Assembly (NCBI RefSeq): GCF_028285715.1 | Contig: NZ_JANQOO010000035.1 | Span: forward strand, 434,001-498,000 | Reading direction: 5' to 3' | From: Ulvibacterium sp. | GTDB taxonomy: Bacteria > Bacteroidota > Bacteroidia > Flavobacteriales > Flavobacteriaceae | DNA: 64,000 nt | Shown: positions 10,173 to 22,588 of the stretch, piece by piece | Numbering within the stretch: position 1 is the first letter of the stretch | How the letters are laid out: the number at the start of each line of letters is the position of its first letter | Translations under genes and position numbers: made by a program | Notes under the pieces: generated by a model | The model's database searches: none | What the model saw: only the letters and a program-made list of their open reading frames with translations | What the model was told of the DNA's origin: nothing

Positions 10173-10514
10173 CTACAAAACCTCTTGGATACGCTCCGCC
10201 GGTCTGCCTACCACCGCCTTATTGCCATTAATTACAATGGGGCGTTCTATTAGCTTCGGATATTGGATCATGGCATCCAAGATGTCCTCATCGGATAGCA
10301 ACCTACCCCGAAACTTTTCTTTCCAAATGGCCTCGTTCTTACGGACAAGGTTTTCTGGGGAAATGGAAAGACAACTTAATATATGGCGAAGTTCTTCCTT
10401 TGTCGGTACGTCTTCCAAATATTTGACAACTTCAAATTCCTTACCGGATTTTTCCAAGAGCTCAAATCCTTCGCGGGATTTACGACATCTTGAGTTATGA
10501 TATATTTTAATCAT
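10173..10514 (-). CDS. arsC: ArsC/Spx-family reductase
   Basis: 113-residue thioredoxin-fold protein of the ArsC (glutaredoxin-coupled arsenate reductase) family. The active-site cysteine lies in YHNSRCRKSREGFELL near the N-terminus, with the family's VKYLEDVPTKEEL, VRKNEAIWKEKF and IERPIVINGNKAVVGRP segments, which include the conserved arginine near the active site. No arsB, acr3 or arsR gene is nearby, so a role in arsenate detoxification is not supported by context; a general thiol-redox role is possible. Length agrees with the family (110-120 residues). Confidence 0.85.
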   Translation of the reverse strand: MIKIYHNSRCRKSREGFELLEKSGKEFEVVKYLEDVPTKEELRHILSCLSISPENLVRKNEAIWKEKFRGRLLSDEDILDAMIQYPKLIERPIVINGNKAVVGRPAERIQEVL

Positions 10515-10913: not shown

Positions 10914-13900
10914 ATGGCCCTAAAAGTTGCAATATCACATAAAACAAAATATACCTATGACCGTAGGGTGAAGTTGTCCCCACATATCTTTCGGTTAAGG
11001 CCTGCCCCCCATAGCAGGACACCCATAGAGGCCTATTCCATTCGAATAAAACCTGAGGAACATTTTTTTAACTGGCAGCAGGATCCCTTTGGAAATTATC
11101 TGGCTCGTATCGTTTTCCCCGAAAAGACGGATGAACTTTCTGTAGAAGTGGAGATTATTGCTGATATGAAGACCATAAATCCCTTTGACTTTTTTGTGGA
11201 AGATACGGTAGAGGATTTTCCTTTTACGTATTCAGAGGCCTTGAAAAAAGAATTGCTGCCGTATTTGGAAATCAATGAGAATGGTCCCTTACTGCAACAG
11301 TGGTTGGGCAATATAGATCGTACCCCACGTCGTACTATCGATTTTCTTACAGAGTTGAATCGCAATCTGTACAACGCCCTGAACTATACCATTCGTATGG
11401 AACCCGGAGTGCAAACCTGTGAGCGGACTTTGGCCGATCATTTGGGCTCCTGTAGAGATTTCGCCTGGCTCATGGTACAGATTTTACGCCATTTAGGTTT
11501 GGCGGCACGTTTTGTTTCAGGGTACTTGGTACAAATGAAGGCAGACGAAAAATCACTCGATGGCCCATCCGGACCTGAAGACGATTTTACCGATCTTCAT
11601 GCCTGGGCCGAAGTCTATTTACCGGGGGCGGGATGGATTGGGCTCGATGCAACGTCCGGCCTGTTGGCTGGAGAGGGGCACATACCCCTGGCCTGTACCC
11701 CCTCTTTTGAGAGTGCCGCTCCTGTTTCTGGATTTACCGAACCTTGTGAGACCCTATTTGAATTCGATAATTCCGTGACCCGAATTTTTGAATCGCCTCG
11801 CGTTACCAAGCCATATACCGAAGACCAATGGAACGCTATTTATAACTTGGGATTTGTTGTGGAAGAAGAACTACAGCAGAATGATGTGCGTCTTACCATG
11901 GGTGGCGAACCTACCTTCGTGTCCGTGGATGATATGGAGTCCGAGGAATGGAATACGGAAGCCGATGGTGAACATAAGCGAAAATTGGCCAGTTCACTTT
12001 CTAGAAGATTACTTGACGCGTTCGGAAAAGGAGGGATGCTTCACCATGCCCAAGGCAAATGGTACCCGGGAGAACCGTTGCCTCGATGGCAAATCGGGGT
12101 TCATTGGCGCAAGGATGGGGAACCTATTTGGAAGGACTCCAAATGGCTGTCTTCGTTTACGAATTCCTATACATTGCCCAAGGGCATTGCCCGTACTTTT
12201 CTTCAAACTTTGGCACGCTACCTCAAGTGTCCTGATGACTCTATCTTGCCCGCCTATGAGGACGCCTTCTATTTTTTGTGGGAAGAACGTAAGTTGCCCG
12301 TGGATATTGACCCCAAAGAATACGACAAAAAGGATTCCGCCCTTCGAAGAAAATTAGGTGAGGTACTGGAACAGGGCCTAGGAAAAGAGGTAGGTTGTGT
12401 TTTCCCGCTGGCCGAAAAAGACGGTCAATGGATAACAAACCCTTGGGAATTCCGAAGTAGGCATCTGTTATTGACACCTGGTAATTCCCCAATTGGATTA
12501 CGGTTGCCATTGGACTCCTTGCCCAAAACCCCCGAAATACCCTCCGAACCAACGGCCCAACCAGAACTCTTTGAACCCAAACCTGCTTTAAAACCTTATG
12601 GTGCTGCACTTCAGGAAAGGATGACCTCGGCTCCAAAGGCTCTAAAAAAACAACCTTATGTACGTACCGCAATTTGTGCCGAAGTCCGTGAGGACAATTT
12701 GTTTCTCTTCCTTCCCCCTTTGGATACTGCCGAGGCCTTTGTGGATTTGGTGGCCAGTATAGAGGCTGCGGCCCAAGAACTGGAAGTTGCTGTGGTCATG
12801 GAGGGGTACGAACCTCCTCGGGACAATCGTTTGGAAATGCTCAAGGTTACTCCAGATCCCGGGGTAATCGAGGTAAATATACACCCGGCCAGGAACTGGC
12901 AAGAGCTAACCGAGAATACCTTAAAATTGTACAACGAAGCCAAAAAATCACGGCTGGGTACGGAAAAATTCATGCTAGACGGTAAACACACCGGTACTGG
13001 TGGTGGAAACCATGTAACCCTGGGTGGGGTTACCCCAGCAGATAGTCCATTATTGCGCAACCCACAGTTGCTACGTAGTTTACTGACCTTCTGGCAGCAT
13101 CATCCCGGTCTTTCCTACTTGTTTTCAGGAGCCTTCATTGGTCCGACCAGTCAGGCTCCCCGGGTGGATGAAACCCGTCTTGAAAATTTGTACGAATTGG
13201 AAATCGCCTTTTCCCAAATCCCGGAGGACAAGGAAGTTCCCTTTTGGTTGACCGATCGCCTATTCCGCCATTTGTTGACCGATGTTACCGGAAACACGCA
13301 TCGCGCCGAATTTTGCATTGATAAATTGTATTCCCCGGATTCTTCATCGGGCCGACTGGGCATTTTGGAATTACGGGCATTTGATATGCCGCCACATGCC
13401 CAAATGAGTTTAATGCAGATGTTGCTGGTGCGTACCCTGGTTTCCTGGTTCTGGAAGAAACCGTATAAGCATAACTTGGTGCGCTGGGGTACCGAACTTC
13501 ACGATAAGTTTTTGTTGGAGCATTACGTTAGGGAGGATATCAAAGATGTAGTTTCTCAACTCAATGAGGCGGGATATCCGTTCCAATTGGATTGGTTTGA
13601 TCCTTTTTTTGAGTTCCGTTTTCCACTTTATGGTATGGTAGACATCGATTCTATGCAATTGGAATTGCGTATGGCCATTGAACCCTGGAACGTACTTGGT
13701 GAGGAAATGTCCGGTAGGGGAACGGCACGCTATGTGGATTCTTCCTTGGAACGGGTCCAAATCAAGGTCAGCAACTTTACGGAAGAACGATATCATATTA
13801 CGTGTAACGGGGTGAAGGTAGAATTGAGCCCTACCGGGGTTAAGGGGGAATATGTGGCCGGAGTACGTTACAAAGCTTGGGAACCTTGGTCCGCCTTGCA

Positions 13901-14234
13901 TCCGACTATTGGAGTAGATACACCTTTGGTATTTGATGTTGTGGACATGTGGAACAAGAAATCCATCGGTGGGTGTACCTACTTTGTAGCACATCCCGGA
14001 GGACGCTCATATGATACCTATCCTGTGAACAGCTATGAGGCCGAGTCCAGAAGAATTAATCGTTTTTGGGACTTTGGTCATACCCAGGGGGAAATCCTAC
14101 CGACAGAAACGGTAGCTTCAACTAATTTTTCAAGTAGAACTGTGGAACCTAAGGACGGTTCGAATACTTTTGTTTATAAGGAGATTCCTATAAACCCGGA
14201 GTTTCCCCATGTCACCGATCTACGAAAGAAATAA
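10914..14234 (+). CDS. Transglutaminase-like plus DUF2126 putative amidoligase, large fusion
   Basis: 1106-residue cytosolic fusion. Residues about 1-130 form the bacterial transglutaminase-like N-terminal beta domain. Residues about 160-260 are the papain-like transglutaminase core with catalytic Cys180 (GSCRDFAW), His229 (DLHAWAE) and Asp245 (GLDATSG). From about 310 to the end is DUF2126, a family predicted (Iyer, Aravind and colleagues) to be a glutamine-synthetase-like COOH-NH2 ligase; here LTMGGEPTFVSVDD, GKHTGTGGGNHVTLGG and ILELRAFDMPPHAQM are striking conserved stretches. It heads a three-gene operon with the ATP-grasp/Alpha-E fusion 11 bases downstream. The inferred job is to make or trim an amide-linked peptide or small metabolite; nothing in the sequence fixes the substrate. 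Confidence 0.9.
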   Translation: MALKVAISHKTKYTYDRRVKLSPHIFRLRPAPHSRTPIEAYSIRIKPEEHFFNWQQDPFGNYLARIVFPEKTDELSVEVEIIADMKTINPFDFFVEDTVEDFPFTYSEALKKELLPYLEINENGPLLQQWLGNIDRTPRRTIDFLTELNRNLYNALNYTIRMEPGVQTCERTLADHLGSCRDFAWLMVQILRHLGLAARFVSGYLVQMKADEKSLDGPSGPEDDFTDLHAWAEVYLPGAGWIGLDATSGLLAGEGHIPLACTPSFESAAPVSGFTEPCETLFEFDNSVTRIFESPRVTKPYTEDQWNAIYNLGFVVEEELQQNDVRLTMGGEPTFVSVDDMESEEWNTEADGEHKRKLASSLSRRLLDAFGKGGMLHHAQGKWYPGEPLPRWQIGVHWRKDGEPIWKDSKWLSSFTNSYTLPKGIARTFLQTLARYLKCPDDSILPAYEDAFYFLWEERKLPVDIDPKEYDKKDSALRRKLGEVLEQGLGKEVGCVFPLAEKDGQWITNPWEFRSRHLLLTPGNSPIGLRLPLDSLPKTPEIPSEPTAQPELFEPKPALKPYGAALQERMTSAPKALKKQPYVRTAICAEVREDNLFLFLPPLDTAEAFVDLVASIEAAAQELEVAVVMEGYEPPRDNRLEMLKVTPDPGVIEVNIHPARNWQELTENTLKLYNEAKKSRLGTEKFMLDGKHTGTGGGNHVTLGGVTPADSPLLRNPQLLRSLLTFWQHHPGLSYLFSGAFIGPTSQAPRVDETRLENLYELEIAFSQIPEDKEVPFWLTDRLFRHLLTDVTGNTHRAEFCIDKLYSPDSSSGRLGILELRAFDMPPHAQMSLMQMLLVRTLVSWFWKKPYKHNLVRWGTELHDKFLLEHYVREDIKDVVSQLNEAGYPFQLDWFDPFFEFRFPLYGMVDIDSMQLELRMAIEPWNVLGEEMSGRGTARYVDSSLERVQIKVSNFTEERYHITCNGVKVELSPTGVKGEYVAGVRYKAWEPWSALHPTIGVDTPLVFDVVDMWNKKSIGGCTYFVAHPGGRSYDTYPVNSYEAESRRINRFWDFGHTQGEILPTETVASTNFSSRTVEPKDGSNTFVYKEIPINPEFPHVTDLRKK

Positions 14235-14245
14235 CCATAAATCGA

Positions 14246-16807
14246 ATGCCGACGACAAAAACAAGCGGGTTAAATAGATATACCACTTTTCATGGGTATG
14301 ATGAAATGTATACCCAGCAAGGTAATCTTAAGCCATATTGGCAAAAACTTCTCGATAGTTTCGACAGGCTAGGAGTCGATGGATTGATCGGTCGCCAAAA
14401 GGATATAGATTGGCTACTTTCCGAAAACGGAGTCACTTATAATGTCTACAACGATCCTAAAGGGATGAACCGTCCTTGGAATTTGAATATTGTTCCCTTT
14501 TTGTTGCATAAAGATGAATGGGAAACCGTTGAAAAAGGCCTTAAACAAAGGGCGGAGCTATTGGATTTGATCTTAAAGGACATTTACGGAGACCGTATGT
14601 TGATTAAAAATGGGATAGTTCCGCCTGAAATCATTTACGGTCATAGAGGGTTTTTGCGACAGTGCTCGGGAATTGAGTATACTATGGAGAAATACCTATC
14701 CGTTTACGCCGCGGATTTGGCGCGTGGAACGGACGGACGACTATGGGTGGTCAATGACCGTACCGAAGCTCCCTCGGGAATGGGGTATACTTTGGAGAAT
14801 CGCTCCACAACGAGCCGAATCCTGCCGGAAATGTACGCCAAAATGAATGTAACCCGTTTATCCGGATTCTTTCAGGACCTAAATCGAATGTTGGTGGAGG
14901 CTTCTCCCATTAAAAAAGAGAACCCCCATATTGTGATCTTAACGCCTGGTTCGCATAACGAGACCTATTTTGAACATGCCTATCTGTCTTCATTTTTAGG
15001 TTATCCTCTGGTCCAGGGTAATGATTTGGTAGTACGTGACGGTTTCCTTTGGATGAAATCCCTAAATGGCCTAAAACAAATAGATGTGGTACTCCGAAGG
15101 GTGGATGATGCATTTTCCGATCCCTTGGAATTGCGTGAGGATTCCCATTTGGGCGTGGCCGGATTGTTAGATGTGGTCCGGAGAAAGAATGTTTCCGTCA
15201 TTAACCCTGTGGGTAGTGGCGTAATGGAAAATCCGGGATTACTTCCTTTTATGCCCAGCATTGCCCAATACTTTTTGGGTCAGGATTTGATATTGCCCCA
15301 AATTGCATCTTGGTGGTGCGGGCAGGAGAAAGAAAAAAAATATGTACTGGAAAACCTATCCAGGTTGGTCATTAAAAGAATAGATCGCACGAATAGGGAG
15401 AGCATTCATTTTGGGGAATTTTTGGATTCCGGAGAGCTGGATAACTTAAAACAAAAAATTATCCAGCGGCCCTATAGGTTCGTTGCACAAGAACGGATTA
15501 GTTTTTCAACGGCCCCCAATCTTGTTAAGGATGCCTTGGAACCCAGGAATTTGGTTACCCGGGCTTTCTGCATCGCATCCGGGTCCGATTACCAGGTCAT
15601 GCCCGGAGGATTGGTAAGGGTAGCCCCGGATCGTAAGACCATAAGGGTTTCCAATCACCGTGGGGGTACTAGTAAGGACTTTTGGATACTGGAGGATGGA
15701 CCGGTTAATGAGGATAAGGTAAGATCTTGGCAAAAAAGGTCTACCAATGCCGTTTCCGGTTTGGATGACCTTCCCAGTTTAACTGCGGAAAACCTATATT
15801 GGGCGGGACGTTATGTAGGACGTACTTTGATCAATGCCCGCTTTATTCGTATGGTCATGCGGCAATTGTCGATGGTGCAAAACCGAAACGAAACACCAGA
15901 TTCCGAGAAACTCCGGACCTTGTTAAGGGCCGTTACCCATTTAACAGGTACTTACCCGGGATTTGCGAAGAAGGCCAAAAAAGGCCCACAGGCCATGGAA
16001 AATCCGTATCAGGAAATGCTCTCTGTTATCAAGGACCCAAAAAAGGTCGGCAGTTTGGCACATACCATTGGTATGTTCAGCAATTCGTATTACTCCATAC
16101 GAAACCTGTGGTCCGCGGATATGTGGCGGGTCTTTGAGGATATCCAACAATTGTGGAAATCATTTCAAGAGGAAGAACAACCTTCAATGACCCGGATTCT
16201 TAGGGTTCTTAACAAACTGATAACCCGTTTGATCGCGTTTATGGGCCTCATTGAGGAAAGTATCATGATCCAACAGGGATTGTTGCTCTATTTTATCGGT
16301 CTGCAACTGGAACAAAGCATGTTGACCATTACCAAATGTCGTTCCCTTTTGACCATTAAGTATGATGCCCATACCGAATATGATCTTCTGGAATATCTGC
16401 TAATCAGTCATGAGAGCTTAAATATCTATCGATACAGTTATCGATCTTACATTCAATTGGAAAATGTGCTGAACCTTGTTGTATTGGATTTGGAATACCC
16501 CCGTTCCTTGGCCTATATGTTGAATCGGCTCCAAAAGGACATAGCACGTTTGCCACAATCAAAACATGACAATCATTTAAACAGTTATCAAAAGTTTGTT
16601 TTTGAGGCTTTTTCCAAACTACGACTGGCAGAAGCGACCTCGTTGGCGAAGACAGGAACGGAGGAAGACTTTACGCGGGAAGCCTTGGAAACCTTATTGG
16701 GACAACTTTCAGAACTTCTATACCAGACCTCACAATCAATAACCAGTTCCTATTTTAACCATACCGATAGACAAAATCAACTATTTACCCAATTCTTCCC
16801 TATTTGA
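14246..16807 (+). CDS. Circularly permuted ATP-grasp ligase fused to Alpha-E domain
   Basis: 853-residue fusion of two domains that are separate genes in the second locus at 19.9-22.4 kb. Residues about 60-475 are a circularly permuted type 2 ATP-grasp domain (VVNDRTEAPSGMGYTLENR, IVILTPGSHNETYFEH, EGNDL-like QGNDLVVRDG, LRRVDDAFSDPLELR, RVSNHRGGTSKDFWIL). Residues about 520-845 are an Alpha-E all-helical domain starting SLTAENLYWAGRYVGRT. ATP-grasp enzymes form amide bonds from a carboxylate, ATP and an amine; Alpha-E is a partner domain of unknown role that is repeatedly linked to this ligase. The GGTSKD segment replaces the usual GGGSKD of the stand-alone copy. The downstream transglutaminase ATG follows two bases after the stop, implying translational coupling. 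Confidence 0.9.
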   Translation: MPTTKTSGLNRYTTFHGYDEMYTQQGNLKPYWQKLLDSFDRLGVDGLIGRQKDIDWLLSENGVTYNVYNDPKGMNRPWNLNIVPFLLHKDEWETVEKGLKQRAELLDLILKDIYGDRMLIKNGIVPPEIIYGHRGFLRQCSGIEYTMEKYLSVYAADLARGTDGRLWVVNDRTEAPSGMGYTLENRSTTSRILPEMYAKMNVTRLSGFFQDLNRMLVEASPIKKENPHIVILTPGSHNETYFEHAYLSSFLGYPLVQGNDLVVRDGFLWMKSLNGLKQIDVVLRRVDDAFSDPLELREDSHLGVAGLLDVVRRKNVSVINPVGSGVMENPGLLPFMPSIAQYFLGQDLILPQIASWWCGQEKEKKYVLENLSRLVIKRIDRTNRESIHFGEFLDSGELDNLKQKIIQRPYRFVAQERISFSTAPNLVKDALEPRNLVTRAFCIASGSDYQVMPGGLVRVAPDRKTIRVSNHRGGTSKDFWILEDGPVNEDKVRSWQKRSTNAVSGLDDLPSLTAENLYWAGRYVGRTLINARFIRMVMRQLSMVQNRNETPDSEKLRTLLRAVTHLTGTYPGFAKKAKKGPQAMENPYQEMLSVIKDPKKVGSLAHTIGMFSNSYYSIRNLWSADMWRVFEDIQQLWKSFQEEEQPSMTRILRVLNKLITRLIAFMGLIEESIMIQQGLLLYFIGLQLEQSMLTITKCRSLLTIKYDAHTEYDLLEYLLISHESLNIYRYSYRSYIQLENVLNLVVLDLEYPRSLAYMLNRLQKDIARLPQSKHDNHLNSYQKFVFEAFSKLRLAEATSLAKTGTEEDFTREALETLLGQLSELLYQTSQSITSSYFNHTDRQNQLFTQFFPI

Positions 16808-16809
16808 AC

Positions 16810-17700
16810 ATGCACTTTAACGTGACGCATACCACCGAATACACTTATGACGCTCCGGTGAGCTATGGCCATAATATCGCAACGCTCAGACCTCGGAAGG
16901 CCATGGGACAAGAATTGTTGGATTACCATATTATAATTTCTCCGGAACCCTCTGAAATAACGGAACGAATCGATTTTTTCGGGAATTTCATTACCCGTTT
17001 CTCCCTACAGACCGAACACAAATCACTCAAGGTAACCACTAAAAGCCACATAAAAAGGGATTATGCCCAATTTCAGGATAGCTTTTTCTCGGGAGCTTGT
17101 AAGTCCATTACTATGAACGAAGCCTTGATTGCATTACAATCCATGGAGTTGGAGATATTGGAAGCTAAACAATATATCCTGGAATCTATCTTTGTCAAAA
17201 AAATGGATGCCGGCATCAGCGAATACGCCCAGAAATCCTTTCAAGGCAATCGTTCCGTATTCGACGCTGCCTTTGAGTTGATGCAGCGGATTTATACAGA
17301 TTTTGATTTCGTTCCTGGATTCACCAGTATTTCTACCCCAATCCATGAGGTAATGGAGCAGAAAAAGGGAGTTTGTCAAGACTTTGCCCAAATTGCGATC
17401 GCCTGCATTAGATCTGTAGGCCTACCTGCCAAATACATAAGCGGTTATATTGAAACGCTGCCGCCTCCTGGAGAAGAAAAACTGGTTGGTGCCGACGCCT
17501 CCCACGCTTGGTTTTCCATTTTTATCCCGGGCTTTGGTTGGGTCGATTTTGACCCCACCAATAACCAGATACCTAAAGACCAACATATTGTTGTGGGGTG
17601 GGGTAGGGACTACTATGATGTACCTCCCTTAAAAGGCGTAGTGTATGGCAGCGGCCAAAGCAAACTTAAAGTCGCCGTAGATATCGTGAGAATCGCTTAA
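16810..17700 (+). CDS. Transglutaminase-like protein (operon A)
   Basis: 296-residue protein with the bacterial transglutaminase N-terminal domain (residues about 1-95, VTHTTEYTYDAPVSYGHN) and a transglutaminase core. The catalytic triad is visible: Cys189 in KGVCQDFAQIA, His232 in ASHAWFSIF and Asp248 in VDFDPTNNQ, with the GLPAKYISGY stretch between. Such proteins may be cysteine peptidases or amide-exchanging enzymes rather than true cross-linkers. The ATG at 16810 is preferred to the TTG at 16804, which overlaps the preceding stop. It is the last gene of the operon that starts at 10914 and ends 27 bases before the convergent prfB. It is related to, but clearly diverged from, the paralogue at 18961. 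Confidence 0.9.
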   Translation: MHFNVTHTTEYTYDAPVSYGHNIATLRPRKAMGQELLDYHIIISPEPSEITERIDFFGNFITRFSLQTEHKSLKVTTKSHIKRDYAQFQDSFFSGACKSITMNEALIALQSMELEILEAKQYILESIFVKKMDAGISEYAQKSFQGNRSVFDAAFELMQRIYTDFDFVPGFTSISTPIHEVMEQKKGVCQDFAQIAIACIRSVGLPAKYISGYIETLPPPGEEKLVGADASHAWFSIFIPGFGWVDFDPTNNQIPKDQHIVVGWGRDYYDVPPLKGVVYGSGQSKLKVAVDIVRIA

Positions 17701-17727
17701 TAATTGCGGCAACCACTTGTTAAACTT

Positions 17728-18823
17728 CTATTCTTCCTTTTGCCCCATCATCATAAGATAGGCCTTAAGGAAGGCATCCAGCTCCCCATCCATCACCGCA
17801 TCCACATTTCCGGTTTCCTCTCCGGTACGTACATCCTTTACCAGCTTGTAGGGATGCATAACGTAATTACGGATTTGAGACCCCCATTCTATTTTCATTT
17901 TGGAGGACTCGATTTCCTGCCTCGCCTGCATTTTTTTGCGCAATTCAATTTCGTATAACTGTGATTTCAACATTTTTAAGGCAGTGGCACGGTTGTCGTG
18001 CTGGCTTCGGGAGTCTGAACAGGAAATTTGAATTCCGGTAGGTTTGTGGACCAGTTGTACCTTGGTCTCAACCTTGTTGACATTCTGCCCACCCGCCCCG
18101 CTGGAGCGTGCTGTAGTTATTTCGATATCGGCCGGATTCACCTCTATTTCAATACTGTCGTCCACCAAGGGATATACATAGACCGAAGCAAAAGAGGTGT
18201 GGCGTTTGGCATTGCTATCAAACGGGGAGATACGCACTAGGCGATGTACGCCATTTTCTCCTTTTAGCCAACCAAACGCGAAATCGCCCTCTATTTCCAA
18301 GGTAACCGTCTTTATACCGGCCACATCGCCTTCCTGGTAGTTCAGTTCCCTAACTTTGTAGCCGCTCTTTTCACTCCACATCATGTACATACGCATGAGC
18401 ATGGAAGCCCAATCACAGCTTTCGGTCCCACCGGCACCGGCTGTAATCTGAAGCACTGCGGTAAGTTCGTCGCCCTCTTCCGAAAGCATGTTCTTAAACT
18501 CCAAGTTCTCCAAGGCATTTAGGGCCTTTTGGTGCTGGGTATCTACTTCCGTCTCGGTAACTTCCCCGGCCTCCATAAATTCCAATAGCACCTCCAAATC
18601 CCCTACTAGCGTTTCAGCTTCGGTATAATCGTCCACCCACTGTTTCTTGGATTGGATGAATTTCATATGGGCCTGTGCCTCTTGAGGATTGTCCCAAAAA
18701 TTTGGGGCAAGCGTCTTTTCTTCCTCGTTCTCTATTTCTATACGTTTGGCATCGATGTCAAAGATACCTCCTTAGCGCACCAAGGCGCTCAATAAGATCT
18801 TTGGATTGATCTGTTGTAATCAT
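17728..18823 (-). CDS. prfB: Peptide chain release factor 2, with programmed +1 frameshift
   Basis: RF2, which recognises UGA and UAA stop codons and releases the finished peptide. The main frame (GAC at 18759 to the stop at 17728) gives 343 residues with the tripeptide region [13 protein letters not shown] and the catalytic GGQ in [14 protein letters not shown]. The first 21 codons lie in a different frame: ATG at 18823 ([21 protein letters not shown]), then CTT TGA C at the shift point. Joining the two by a +1 shift gives 364 residues, matching the family length. The frame that opens at the ATG at 18666 is only an internal fragment and would lack the N-terminal helices. The gene separates the two convergent amidoligase-type operons. 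Confidence 0.96.
18757..18773 (-). promoter_or_regulatory. prfB: prfB programmed +1 frameshift site
   Basis: On the minus strand the bases read AAGGAGGTATCTTTGAC. This is the classic arrangement: a Shine-Dalgarno-like AGGAGG, three spacer bases, the slippery CTT, the in-frame stop TGA and a following C. RF2 shortage makes the ribosome pause at TGA and slip by one base, so the protein controls its own synthesis. The strong AGGAGG stands out in a genome where gene starts generally lack one. Confidence 0.93.
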
Positions 18824-18839
18824 GGGTTTCAATTTCCAA

Positions 18840-18873
18840 CAAAAATAGGTTTCTTTTTTTGAAGTGGGCCAAA
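18840..18873 (-). promoter_or_regulatory. Candidate prfB promoter
   Basis: Minus strand TTTG (18873-18870), 22-base spacer, TATTTTTG (18847-18840), both matching the Bacteroidota consensus; the prfB ATG lies 16 bases downstream of the -7 element. Confidence 0.5.
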
Positions 18874-18960
18874 AATCAATCGTTTCGTCCAGTTCTTTCC
18901 ATGCAAGAAAAATAGTTCTACAATTCCGTTTTGTACAAGCAACTTAGTAGTATAAATCGT

Positions 18961-19818
18961 TTACTGTTGCTGTTCTGACAGTACCTTTACGGAATGGATG
19001 GTGGTATTTTCCCCAGGGGCATAAACCACACCTTTTAAAGGCGAACAGTCGGTATAATCCTTACCATGGCAGACTTTGACGTGATTGGTATTAGCCAGAA
19101 GATTATTTGTAGGGTCAAAGCCCAACCAACCTACATCTGGGATGTAAGCCTCGGCCCAGGCATGCATTTGGGAATCGCCAAAATACCCATGACCCTGATG
19201 AAGGTAGCCCGAAACATACCTGGCAGGGACTTTGTTTTTCCGGGCCAACGCGCAAAACAAATGCGTAAAATCTTGGCAAACACCCTGTTTTTCCTTAATT
19301 ATTGTGTCCAAGGGCGTATTTACATCAGTGACCCCAGGTTGAAAGGAAAGATATTTGGAAATCCATTTGTTAAGCGACTGAATATTTTCAAAAATGGTCT
19401 TGTCCCTATCAAAGGGGAAGATATTGGTATAGGACTCTGAAAGGCTGGTGAACCTCGTCTTTCTAAGAAAGGGTTCAAAATCTATTTGAAAGTTTAGATC
19501 GTCCAACTTTGCACAATCGGCCGTGGAGTCCTGTGGCAAGGAAAAATCAAAAGGATTGACTTCCTTTTTAATCACGGTGAAAGAAGCCTCAAACGAAATC
19601 TCATTGAATTTTTGGCCGGGATGCACCCGAATAGTTTTAAAACCAAATCCATTGATGGAGGTTTGGTGGATATCATTGAGTGAATTTGCGAATTCCCAAG
19701 ATACCAGCTGTTGACTTTTATTATCCTCTGGAATGATCAGAAATTGCCAATACGCATCGTTTACTAAGGTTTCATACCGATTTTTTGCACTATACTTAAT
19801 AGAATACTCTTGGTACAT
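18961..19818 (-). CDS. Transglutaminase-like protein (operon B)
   Basis: 285-residue transglutaminase-like protein. The N-terminal beta domain (about 1-115, YSIKYSAKNRYETLV) is followed by the core with Cys181 (QGVCQDFTHLF), His219 (MHAWAEAYIP) and Asp235 (GFDPTNNLL), the expected catalytic triad. It is last in the minus-strand operon B, 40 bases after the Alpha-E gene. The ATG at 19818 (MYQEYSIKY) is preferred because the longer frame adds a non-conserved leader and would crowd the Alpha-E stop. Like its partners, it is predicted to act in the cytosol on an amide-linked product, but this is inference from gene neighbourhood only. Confidence 0.9.
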   Translation of the reverse strand: MYQEYSIKYSAKNRYETLVNDAYWQFLIIPEDNKSQQLVSWEFANSLNDIHQTSINGFGFKTIRVHPGQKFNEISFEASFTVIKKEVNPFDFSLPQDSTADCAKLDDLNFQIDFEPFLRKTRFTSLSESYTNIFPFDRDKTIFENIQSLNKWISKYLSFQPGVTDVNTPLDTIIKEKQGVCQDFTHLFCALARKNKVPARYVSGYLHQGHGYFGDSQMHAWAEAYIPDVGWLGFDPTNNLLANTNHVKVCHGKDYTDCSPLKGVVYAPGENTTIHSVKVLSEQQQ

Positions 19819-19858
19819 ATTGGAAGTTGAGAACAGTAAATATAACAAAGAAAAAACG

Positions 19859-20806
19859 TCAATAATTAAAAAACTCCTTTTCCATTTTTTTACTGATCTG
19901 TATCAATTCCTTTAACAGCGTGTCGATAAAATTCTTGATATTGCTTTCTATCTCTTCGATGTATTTGTACTCATACTCCGAACGTACCCGCCCTACCAAA
20001 AAGGCCGTAGAATTTTTATTATACTTTTTACTTGGGTCCAACACCCTAATGTGCTTATAAACTTGATTAAGACTGTTCATTATGGACCTGGGACAATTGG
20101 GGTTCAATATCAGAAATTCCAAAGTAGTGATACTGGTTGGGGTCTTTTTATAGAACCTGCGCATCATATCATAGGACTCTGCGCATTTTAATAGCGTACT
20201 CCATTCAAAACTATGGCTAAACTTGTCGCCGTAGCTCCCCTGCGCTTTGAGGGCATCGTTATATTTTGCGTTGATTATCCGTATGATTTGGTTGGCACGC
20301 TCCATATTTATACCCATCATAATGATAGCATAGACCTCATCGTGGAGTAGGGTACCCCTTATTTTTCCCCGTAAAATAGCGGTCATTTCGGTAACGTTTA
20401 TGGTGAAATCATAAAGTCCCCTTTTTACAAATACATCCACGGGATAGTTAAGGATAAAATGATAGAATTTGTTAATGGCCTCGTAAAGTTCCGTAGAAAT
20501 GAGATCACGGGCGCTATTGGCATTTTCCCGGGCATATTTCACATTGTTAATTATGGAATATCCACATTCATGGTCCAGGGCAATTTTCTGTAGCACTTCA
20601 TCCTCATTTAGCTCAACGCTTTCATCTTCTTCGGCATCCCCGACCATAAACAACATGGAACGTAATACGAATTGACGGGATTGGGACAACTGGTTAGGCG
20701 CATCAAGAGAAGAAAAATAATTGACATTGAGGTATCTGGCCATATGTTCGGAACGTTCAATATATCGTCCCATCCAGAAGAGGTTGTTGGCTACTCGTGC
20801 TAGCAT
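19859..20806 (-). CDS. Alpha-E domain protein
   Basis: 315-residue, almost entirely helical protein of the Alpha-E family, beginning with the typical MLARVANNLFWMGRYIERSEHMARYL and containing the conserved arginine/tyrosine pattern and AMTEMTAILRGKIRGTL-like segments. No catalytic activity is known; the family is found almost always beside or fused to circularly permuted ATP-grasp ligases and transglutaminase-like genes, as here. It corresponds to the C-terminal half of the fusion protein encoded at 14246. It lies between the ATP-grasp gene (115-base gap) and the transglutaminase gene (40-base gap), all in the same direction. Confidence 0.9.
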   Translation of the reverse strand: MLARVANNLFWMGRYIERSEHMARYLNVNYFSSLDAPNQLSQSRQFVLRSMLFMVGDAEEDESVELNEDEVLQKIALDHECGYSIINNVKYARENANSARDLISTELYEAINKFYHFILNYPVDVFVKRGLYDFTINVTEMTAILRGKIRGTLLHDEVYAIIMMGINMERANQIIRIINAKYNDALKAQGSYGDKFSHSFEWSTLLKCAESYDMMRRFYKKTPTSITTLEFLILNPNCPRSIMNSLNQVYKHIRVLDPSKKYNKNSTAFLVGRVRSEYEYKYIEEIESNIKNFIDTLLKELIQISKKMEKEFFNY

Positions 20807-20921
20807 ATGGTTTTTGTTTTATTTTTTTAGGTTTGATTTTAGTGCTATAACCCTACCTTGATCTTAATAGAATGAATTCATAGCTCTACTTTTTAAATCC
20901 CAATCGCATAGAATCCGCCCC

Positions 20922-22385
20922 TCAATCTTTTAGGACCCAAGTATCCTTGGAACCGCCACCTTGTGAGGAGTTGACGATTAAGTTCCCTTTTTTGAGGGCC
21001 ACTCTGGTGAGCCCTCCCTTAAGCACAAACTCCCGATCCTTGCCCAATACGGTAAAGGTCCTTAAATCGATATGTCTTTGTTCAAATGATTCGTTTTCAT
21101 CAATATAGGTAGGATGTACCGAAAGGGACATAATAGGTTGGGCCACATATTTTCTTGGGTTTTGGGCCACTTGTTTTTTTACCTCCTCAACTTCTTCCTT
21201 TGATAATCTGTTCCCTATGGATATACCGTAGCCACCAGCTTCATCAACAGGTTTTATCACCAGCTCGGAAATATGTTCCAGAACATATTTTAGTTCATCG
21301 GGTCGACTACAGTGGTACGTGTGCACATTTTTAATAATAGGCTCCTCATCCAGGTAATACTTTATGATTTCGGGCATATATGTATATACCGCTTTGTCAT
21401 CGGCAACACCTGTACCGGGAGCGTTGGCCAACGTTACGTTTCCTTTCTTGTAGGCCGCGAACAAACCGGGGACCCCTAGGGCCGAATCTGGACGAAATTC
21501 CAACGGATCAATAAATAGGTCATCTATGCGACGATAAATTACGTCTACCCGTTCCGGACCTTGAATGGTCTTCATGTAGACAAAATCGTTTTCCACGAAA
21601 AGATCGCGACCTTCTACGAGCTCTACGCCCATAGTCTTGGCCAAATAGGAATGTTCATAGAAAGCGGAATTGTACATGCCAGGCGTAATAACCACTGTAT
21701 TTGGGATGTCGATGCCCTTAGGCTTTACCGTTTCCAGAAGATCCAAGAGATTTTCGGCATAGTTGGTGACCGTATGGGTCTGATAGTGATTAAAAACACC
21801 AAAAAGGGCTCTTTTAAGCGCAGTTCTATTGCAGATAACATAACTCACCCCGGACGGACATCTGATGTTATCCTCCAATACATAATAGTTGCCATCGGTA
21901 TGTTTTATGACATCCGTACCGGAAATATGGTTGTAAATTCCGCCTGGCGGATTTACGTTCATCATTTGATGAAGATAGTTATCGGATGAGCTCACAAGTT
22001 CCAATGGCACGATACCTTGCTTAAGTATTTTTTTATCATGATAAATATCCCATAGAAATAGATTGAGTGCCCTGCTTCGTTGTATAGACCCTCTTTCTAT
22101 AATGTCCCACTCCGCTGTATCTATAATGCGTGGAAAAAGGTCAAAAGGAAAAATCTTCTCTTTGGCATCCTTTTCTCCATATACTTGAAATGTAATCCCC
22201 TGGTTAAAGAATGAAGATTTGGCCTTCTCGTTCAAACGGACGTAATCTTGAATGGAATGTCCTCCATATAGATTGAACAAGGTTTTGTAGACATCCTTAA
22301 CAACACCATTTTCATCGAATATTTCATCGAACAGATCAGGGTTTCTTTGGTACGATGCGAAAATCTGGTTTTCGAGGTTGTCCAT
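20922..22385 (-). CDS. Circularly permuted type 2 ATP-grasp ligase
   Basis: About 487 residues, a stand-alone circularly permuted ATP-grasp protein. Conserved stretches: YVLEDNIRCPSGVSYVICNR (nucleotide and metal region), VVITPGMYNSAFYEHSYLA, LVEGRDLFVENDFVYMKT, YRRIDDLFIDPLEFR, KPVDEAGGYGISIG and the C-terminal NSSQGGGSKDTWVL. It is expected to form an amide bond using ATP. It is first in operon B. The start is uncertain: the frame runs to an ATG at 22433, but the ATG at 22385 (MDNLENQIF) gives the more usual length and N-terminus. The paralogous domain in operon A is only moderately similar, so the two loci are likely to make different products rather than being redundant copies. Confidence 0.88.
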   Translation of the reverse strand: MDNLENQIFASYQRNPDLFDEIFDENGVVKDVYKTLFNLYGGHSIQDYVRLNEKAKSSFFNQGITFQVYGEKDAKEKIFPFDLFPRIIDTAEWDIIERGSIQRSRALNLFLWDIYHDKKILKQGIVPLELVSSSDNYLHQMMNVNPPGGIYNHISGTDVIKHTDGNYYVLEDNIRCPSGVSYVICNRTALKRALFGVFNHYQTHTVTNYAENLLDLLETVKPKGIDIPNTVVITPGMYNSAFYEHSYLAKTMGVELVEGRDLFVENDFVYMKTIQGPERVDVIYRRIDDLFIDPLEFRPDSALGVPGLFAAYKKGNVTLANAPGTGVADDKAVYTYMPEIIKYYLDEEPIIKNVHTYHCSRPDELKYVLEHISELVIKPVDEAGGYGISIGNRLSKEEVEEVKKQVAQNPRKYVAQPIMSLSVHPTYIDENESFEQRHIDLRTFTVLGKDREFVLKGGLTRVALKKGNLIVNSSQGGGSKDTWVLKD

Positions 22386-22588
22386 GCTGTTTTCTTTTCC
22401 CTTAATATAGCGGTTTTCGACGGATCTTACCATGTGAAATCCCTAATAATAGTATTGTTTTTTAGATATACGCTTAAAAATAAAGCGCGATTTCTGTCAT
22501 TTTTATTTTTAGGCTAGAATGACAAAGGAGCATCCGAATTTGAGGTTTTTTCCATATTTTTAGATGTCCAACGCAGTACCCCAATCCT

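Follow-up and report, generated by a model that had tools for sequence, protein, structure and literature searches.

In a 64,000-nucleotide stretch of Ulvibacterium sp. (Flavobacteriaceae; assembly GCF_028285715.1, contig NZ_JANQOO010000035.1, positions 434,001 to 498,000; hereafter, the window), two convergent gene sets built from the ATP-grasp, Alpha-E and transglutaminase families lie on either side of prfB. The three genes of locus A (10914-17700, forward strand) specify a transglutaminase-DUF2126 protein, a fusion of ATP-grasp with Alpha-E and a transglutaminase-like protein, and locus B (18961-22433, reverse strand) carries the ATP-grasp, Alpha-E and transglutaminase-like genes as three separate frames. 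On balance, we believe that both loci are parts of a single module that forms and edits amide bonds, in which the fused protein is a non-catalytic partner. Indeed, judging from its sequence, the fused protein of locus A is probably a maintained pseudo-ligase, because its ATP-grasp motifs have been lost and yet its gene is under purifying selection.

ATP-grasp motifs of the fused and unfused proteins

The ATP-grasp of locus B, P0007 (20922..22433, reverse strand; listed with 503 amino acids (aa), the true start being possibly further in), is a circularly permuted ligase that retains E187-x-N189 and G400-G-Y-G403. At the aligned positions the fused protein of locus A, P0002 (14246..16807, forward strand; 853 aa), has N170-D-R172 (14753..14761, forward strand) and N383-R-E-S386 (15392..15403, forward strand), where its unfused relatives read E-D-N and G-G-Y-G. 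The original prediction had described the ATP-grasp motifs as apparently intact in both loci; this stands for locus B, but in locus A E-x-N and GGYG are absent, as they are from the whole sampled clade, and on the alignment its ATP-binding residues are judged to be disrupted. Both proteins match the Pfam profile CP_ATPgrasp_2 (cut-off of 32 bits), P0007 with 522.9 bits and P0002 with 493.9 bits over residues 1-485, the latter followed by an Alpha-E match of 181.9 bits (about residues 509-837).

The main alignment held 103 ATP-grasp domains in rows longer than 400 aa (53 unfused and 50 fused), and 21 sequences from more genomes and plasmids, belonging to Bacteroidota, alpha-, beta- and gammaproteobacteria, Acidobacteriota, Actinomycetota, Deinococcota and Bacillota, extended it to 124 (62 of each type), omitting pieces shorter than 400 aa such as the unfused one of locus L132. 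Among comparison loci, P0007 was aligned with 32 of the 43 unfused references and P0002 with all 45 fused ones. In the extended alignment E-x-N is present in 62/62 unfused and 0/62 fused rows, and GGYG in 62/62 unfused rows and none of the 56 fused rows that are ungapped there, six more fused rows being gapped. Within the 103 rows, E187 and N189 are each found in 53/53 unfused and 0/50 fused domains, with Arg at position 189 in 46 of the latter (57/62 in the extended set); R191, kept in 52/53 unfused domains, is Gln in 42/50 fused ones; S197 is also altered; G400, G401, Y402 and G403, each present in 53/53 unfused domains, give way to scattered residues (Gly at 401 in 20/50); and D456 (52/53 unfused) is mostly replaced by hydrophobic residues. 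The fused type retains P193, G195 and R203 (50/50 each), S194 (47), Y198 (48) and K394 (46/50), and because all of these but K394 flank E-x-N, the alignment around this motif is firm. Moreover, near-copies are not the source of the motif count, since clustering at 80% identity gives 56 fused and 51 unfused clusters.

The signatures, E-D-N-x-R-x-P-S-G in the unfused type and mostly D-R-T-Q-A-P-S-G in the fused one, offer a simple way to separate the ligase to assay from the protein to treat as a partner. E-x-N and the glycine-rich loop, on which the family test relies, are found in P0007 and missing from P0002, and we class P0002 as a CP_ATPgrasp_2 member by descent and not as an active ligase.

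The Alpha-E half has changed as well. In an alignment of 46 fused and 44 unfused Alpha-E rows, the fused type has for the most part lost the R93, E94, N95, R176 and W202 seen in the unfused type, and keeps W11, R14 and R18 (46/46) and E169 (45/46); the ER motif, E17-R18 in the unfused protein P0006, reads G525-R526 in P0002, and its Glu is absent from 12/46 fused rows. That ATP-grasp and Alpha-E act as one unit, as had been proposed, is favored only indirectly: the two are neighbors or fused, and residues that the unfused type never varies have been lost from both halves of the fused type.

An AlphaFold2 model of P0002 (predicted local distance difference test (pLDDT) 86.3; predicted template modeling score (pTM) 0.85) had 3n6x as its top Foldseek match, followed by glutathione and glutathionylspermidine synthetases, with no convincing relative of the Alpha-E half among the 50 hits listed. 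By sequence, P0007 matches PDB entry 3n6x with E=1.5e-154, and a PDB search with P0006 found no relative at E values up to 1.

The replacements at Asn189 (Arg) and Arg191 (Gln) are themselves conserved, and positions such as W32, G180, L276, R312 and E328 are each invariant in the fused type (50/50) but differ in most unfused rows, all of which could speak for a different, metal-independent or unusual chemistry that the fused protein performs through conserved residues of its own. We consider this rather unlikely, given that fused proteins show a scatter of residues in place of GGYG, a pattern that does not look like a new catalytic loop, and that change has been faster in the fused ATP-grasp than in the unfused (mean distance of 0.545 vs. 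0.425; 398 of 435 pairs, 30 organisms).

Ancestry, co-occurrence and layout of the two types

A FastTree phylogeny of the 103 ATP-grasps contains one split between the 50 fused and 53 unfused sequences, with support of 100, which is kept with 124 rows; inner placements in the fused half are unsure owing to long branches. The ATP-grasp parts of the window's two proteins share about 32% identity. Tree and identity mark fused and unfused ATP-grasps as old paralogues, and therefore they are not two versions of one active enzyme, as had been supposed; the identity and the deep split likewise rule out that either locus is a recent duplicate of its neighbor.

Among 60 close relatives, Alpha-E occurs in nine, all with an unfused copy, and DUF2126 in four (G000, G149, G151 and G163), which are exactly those with the fused copy. 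In 395 Bacteroidota genomes drawn, Alpha-E was found in 143 (its four weakest matches, those of G207, G335 and G429 and the second one of G366, being left off the itemized matches) and DUF2126 in 12. A fused-length Alpha-E frame is present in nine of the 395, spread over eight genera and five families, and all nine also have DUF2126 (hypergeometric chance of 3.7e-16, kinship uncorrected); fusion was read from the sequence in four of them (G000, G126, G091, G137) and taken from frame length in five (G210, G257, G281, G245, G338). All 12 DUF2126-bearing genomes, and so all nine fused-bearing ones, carry an unfused copy. The co-occurrence of these genes in relatives, on which the original prediction depended, was thus found, with fused, DUF2126 and unfused genes together. 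An 844-aa frame in G090 was rejected as a fusion: it overlaps a separate ATP-grasp gene in another phase. In a genome of the same genus (G148, locus L035) DUF2126 was not found, and its single Alpha-E match belongs to a different three-gene unfused set, the ATP-grasp of which is 49% identical to P0007.

The DUF2126 profile gave 581 confirmed loci, of which the best 80 were used for comparison; distant families are under-sampled in this set, and frames longer than 700 aa were counted as fused. Within the fetched stretches, the fused form is present in 45 loci, the unfused pair in 42, both in 28 and neither in 20, the last count including three loci (L050, L057, L073) with ATP-grasp pieces cut at a contig end. 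Thirty loci have less than 9 kb on one side; among the other 50, flanked by at least 9 kb each way, the corresponding counts are 35, 29, 21 and 7. Of the 45 loci with a fused gene, 44 continue on the same strand with a transglutaminase gene, and the 45th stops at the contig end. As for the 28 loci with both types, ten arrange unfused, DUF2126 and fused genes as one codirectional run of 8.4-8.9 kb, seven are window-like, five place the unfused pair on the opposite strand, upstream, two are codirectional in another order and four have other layouts. Furthermore, among plasmid records (14 of 117 matches taken, chosen for variety), a 90.7-kb plasmid of Enterobacter roggenkampii has five successive genes on one strand, for ATP-grasp, Alpha-E, transglutaminase-DUF2126, the fused protein and a transglutaminase, and both ATP-grasp types are annotated there as "circularly permuted type 2 ATP-grasp protein". 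Since 28/80 loci and this plasmid hold both types, a fused copy beside an unfused one is a common arrangement in the family, across phyla.

The E. roggenkampii module (L129, NZ_CP116251.1; clinical strain) has an arsenate reductase gene and an IS26 transposase nearby, which hints at either mobility or an oddity of the assembly. Three other plasmid records come from Sinorhizobium, Sphingomonas and Tsukamurella (L133, L134 and L141), the Tsukamurella one also carrying alaS and aspS, which is odd for a plasmid. In Halomonas sp. PA16-9 (L132), DUF2126 and the unfused ATP-grasp are broken over several frames, as is the unfused ATP-grasp of L110, by decay or sequencing error. DUF2126 and the fused gene are both present in Azospirillum brasilense. 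Two contigs labeled as metagenome-assembled genomes of Helicobacter pylori and Sulfurospirillaceae (L048 and L047) encode DUF2126 proteins 65-68% identical to the window's, and mis-binning is possible.

According to the original prediction, the loci are two independent amidoligase systems, both active, that make two related products. Each locus is a complete operon-like set with intact transglutaminases, the fused form stands alone in 14 and the unfused form in eight of the 50 loci with at least 9 kb of flanks, and in G163 about 197 kb of one contig separates the two types. Nevertheless, every one of the 62 fused rows is without E-x-N, an unfused copy accompanies the fused one in every fused-bearing genome (9/9 of the 395-genome draw; 4/4 close relatives), and both types often share one run; with such a run in 10/28 loci and the five-gene plasmid row, two related products are unsupported. 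We regard two active systems as improbable and two products as less likely than one module.

We give very little credence to a further alternative, in which locus B would be a tagging operon of the proteobacterial Anbu (proteasome-like) kind and locus A an add-on. Its ATP-grasp, Alpha-E and transglutaminase genes are the same as those of the Anbu operon (in passages of PMC6376114 and PMC5666114), and in G064 a proteasome-family gene adjoins an Alpha-E gene; however, the window's genome has no match to PF00227 or to the G064 proteasome-family protein, and profile and protein found none in eight same-family Alpha-E relatives, so that it is largely excluded here. The search with the G064 protein was the weaker one, since it found only G064 itself and missed a proteasome-family match in G137 that the profile found.

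Decay of the fused gene into a pseudogene, which motif loss and faster evolution might suggest, can be dismissed: in one comparison with a same-genus relative, the proportions of nonsynonymous (pN, 0.082) and synonymous differences (pS, 0.728, near saturation) give a pN/pS of about 0.11, indicating purifying selection (pN is 0.036-0.117 for the other five genes of the two loci), and the fused proteins form one old clade across several phyla. Their open frames are no independent evidence against decay, because frames longer than 700 aa defined the fused class.

Genes of the two loci and prfB

The gene and domain content, coordinates and strands of both loci were confirmed with Pfam, and with TIGR00020 for prfB, and the families had been named correctly as ATP-grasp, Alpha-E, transglutaminase and DUF2126. 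P0001 (10914..14234, forward strand; 1106 aa) matches Bact_transglu_N, Transglut_core and DUF2126 (1273.7 bits), its transglutaminase-like domain (residues 1-275) being joined to DUF2126, a putative glutamine-synthetase-like amidoligase. P0003 (16804..17700, forward strand; 298 aa) is transglutaminase-like, with Bact_transglu_N and Transglut_core, and has a listed TTG start with an ATG two codons further in. In locus B, P0006 (19859..20806, reverse strand; 315 aa) is the Alpha-E protein (243.8 bits), and P0005 (18961..19848, reverse strand; listed start TTG, ATG available at 19818) is transglutaminase-like, with Transglut_core and a Bact_transglu_N match below the cut-off. Both loci are tightly packed, as had been noted, with an 11-nt gap and then a 4-nt overlap in locus A, and about 115 nt and 10-40 nt, depending on start choice, in locus B. 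These loci account for every match in the genome to Alpha-E (two) and to Bact_transglu_N (three, of which one falls below the cut-off).

Cys/His/Asp triads are complete in all three transglutaminases, in agreement with the original prediction (C180/H229/D245 in P0001, C191/H234/D250 in P0003 and C191/H229/D245 in P0005), and their activity is predicted. When P0001 was aligned with proteins of 44 of the 80 loci, its triad was invariant in 45/45 rows, and likewise the DUF2126 core residues E332, E653, N655, N699, H700, R797, E799, E819 and R821.

Among the ten other open frames of the window, with short frames outside the scan, there was no regulator and no obvious substrate gene. An ArsC-family gene (10173-10514) is located upstream of locus A, probably by chance. 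Between the loci, prfB (17728..18823, reverse strand; first ATG at 18823) has a classical programmed +1 frameshift at CTT TGA C (TGA 18760-18758), with AGGAGG TAT before the site (AGGAGGTATCTTTGAC). It is outside the module, downstream of locus B on the same strand; a position directly downstream of the locus B transglutaminase is shared by the window and four relatives (G149, G163, G150 and G160; loci L027, L029, L037 and L038).

The proposed module and known systems

In the single module that we favor, the ATP-grasp of locus B, with its predicted active site intact, would act together with Alpha-E to turn a carboxylate into an acyl-phosphate and then, with an amine, into an amide, as fold and motif suggest. 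The putative glutamine-synthetase-like DUF2126 domain may contribute the ligase chemistry of locus A as a second ligase (for the mycobacterial relative, see passages of PMC2588565), and the transglutaminase/protease-like domain coupled to it, along with the other transglutaminases, could cleave or transfer the product. The fused ATP-grasp/Alpha-E protein would be a conserved partner with no catalysis of its own, either acting on DUF2126 as scaffold or regulator or pairing with the active ATP-grasp/Alpha-E. A bolder version is tentative: a widespread module with a dedicated pseudo-ligase, in which an old, possibly once-only fusion gave up ATP chemistry, acquired a conserved Arg at the presumed metal site, and might now be linked to DUF2126 as a receptor or an allosteric subunit, there to sense or hold the product (acyl-phosphate or peptide) of its active paralogue. 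As regards this metal site, D174, E187 and N189 of the unfused type have a spacing resembling that of Asp330/Glu344/Asn346 in TryS and of D318/E330/N332 in GspS, which we take to be metal ligands there (the letters were verified in E. coli K-12 gss). The three TryS residues bind two magnesium ions in a model of that enzyme (part of PMC3581523).

Several observations weigh against this module. Aligned by profile, the ATP-grasps gave no significant match to E. coli GspS, for which reason we infer E187 and N189 as metal ligands from motif spacing and fold, and with six added reference frames, a weak test in which three (L143, L144, L148) are pieces of 46-136 aa, the best alignment was off the motif for E330/N332; the loss of the family's own invariant residues stands independently of this naming. 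DUF2126 occurs without a fused-length frame in 3/12 Bacteroidota genomes (G064, G214 and G218, one family), and only an unfused ATP-grasp lies near it in 15/80 loci (8/50 with at least 9 kb of flanks); the fused partner is not obligatory, because DUF2126 is also found without it. Conversely, the Sinorhizobium, Sphingomonas and Tsukamurella plasmid records have fused and transglutaminase genes with no DUF2126 within the 6-7 kb stretch. The DUF2126 model (pLDDT 77.1) matches glutamine synthetase weakly (9n4x, Foldseek rank 46, E=0.17, probability 0.80), and, in the passages of PMC6376114 that concern it, the Yersinia study saw no specific interaction of Anbu with the other proteins of its operon.

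Nitrogen supply or its regulators affect the related genes of Pseudomonas putida and of Burkholderia (passages of PMC8050072 and PMC5491218). In Burkholderia cenocepacia, I35_5080-5083 encode DUF404/DUF407, DUF403 and two proteins with a transglutaminase domain, of which one is large, and are listed among the common targets of sigma54 and NtrC (PMC5491218, in part). Their gene families are similar to those described here, whereas the nitrogen control is proteobacterial and none was seen for the window.

The glutathione, glutathionylspermidine and trypanothione synthetases resemble the fused protein through Foldseek matches of its predicted model, and differ from it in that identity is about 10-14% and the fused clade is without E-x-N. 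Mycobacterial Rv2566 presumably has a fused ATP-grasp/Alpha-E gene as its neighbor. Its transglutaminase-like domain is joined to a carboxylate-amine ligase (in passages of PMC2588565), the same domain fusion as in P0001, likened by description and not by sequence.

Anbu is a frequent partner of ATP-grasp, Alpha-E and transglutaminase genes (PMC6376114 and PMC5666114, in part). In Yersinia bercovieri, the Anbu operon is described as four genes with no fused protein, and its ATP-grasp released phosphate from ATP (passages of PMC6376114). The Anbu operons of Y. bercovieri and Pseudomonas and the window have ATP-grasp, Alpha-E and transglutaminase genes together, a likeness of gene content, but the window adds DUF2126 and the fused copy, and no Anbu was found.

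A peptide-tagging system of ATP-grasp, glutamine-synthetase-like ligase, Alpha-E and N-terminal nucleophile (NTN) hydrolase was predicted by Iyer, Abhiman, Burroughs and Aravind in 2009 (as cited in parts of PMC6376114 and PMC5666114). Our literature search found no product reported for the combination of ATP-grasp, Alpha-E and transglutaminase families, and no report of an inactive or degenerate ATP-grasp, broader pseudoenzyme matches having been viewed only in part. The families of the 2009 system are the same as here, with ATP-grasp, Alpha-E and transglutaminase in locus B and a DUF2126-type ligase with an N-terminal transglutaminase in locus A; the differences are that no Anbu, the NTN hydrolase, was found in the genome and that one ATP-grasp is without a predicted active site. 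Separating the fused from the unfused proteins turns that open prediction into a defined binding test.

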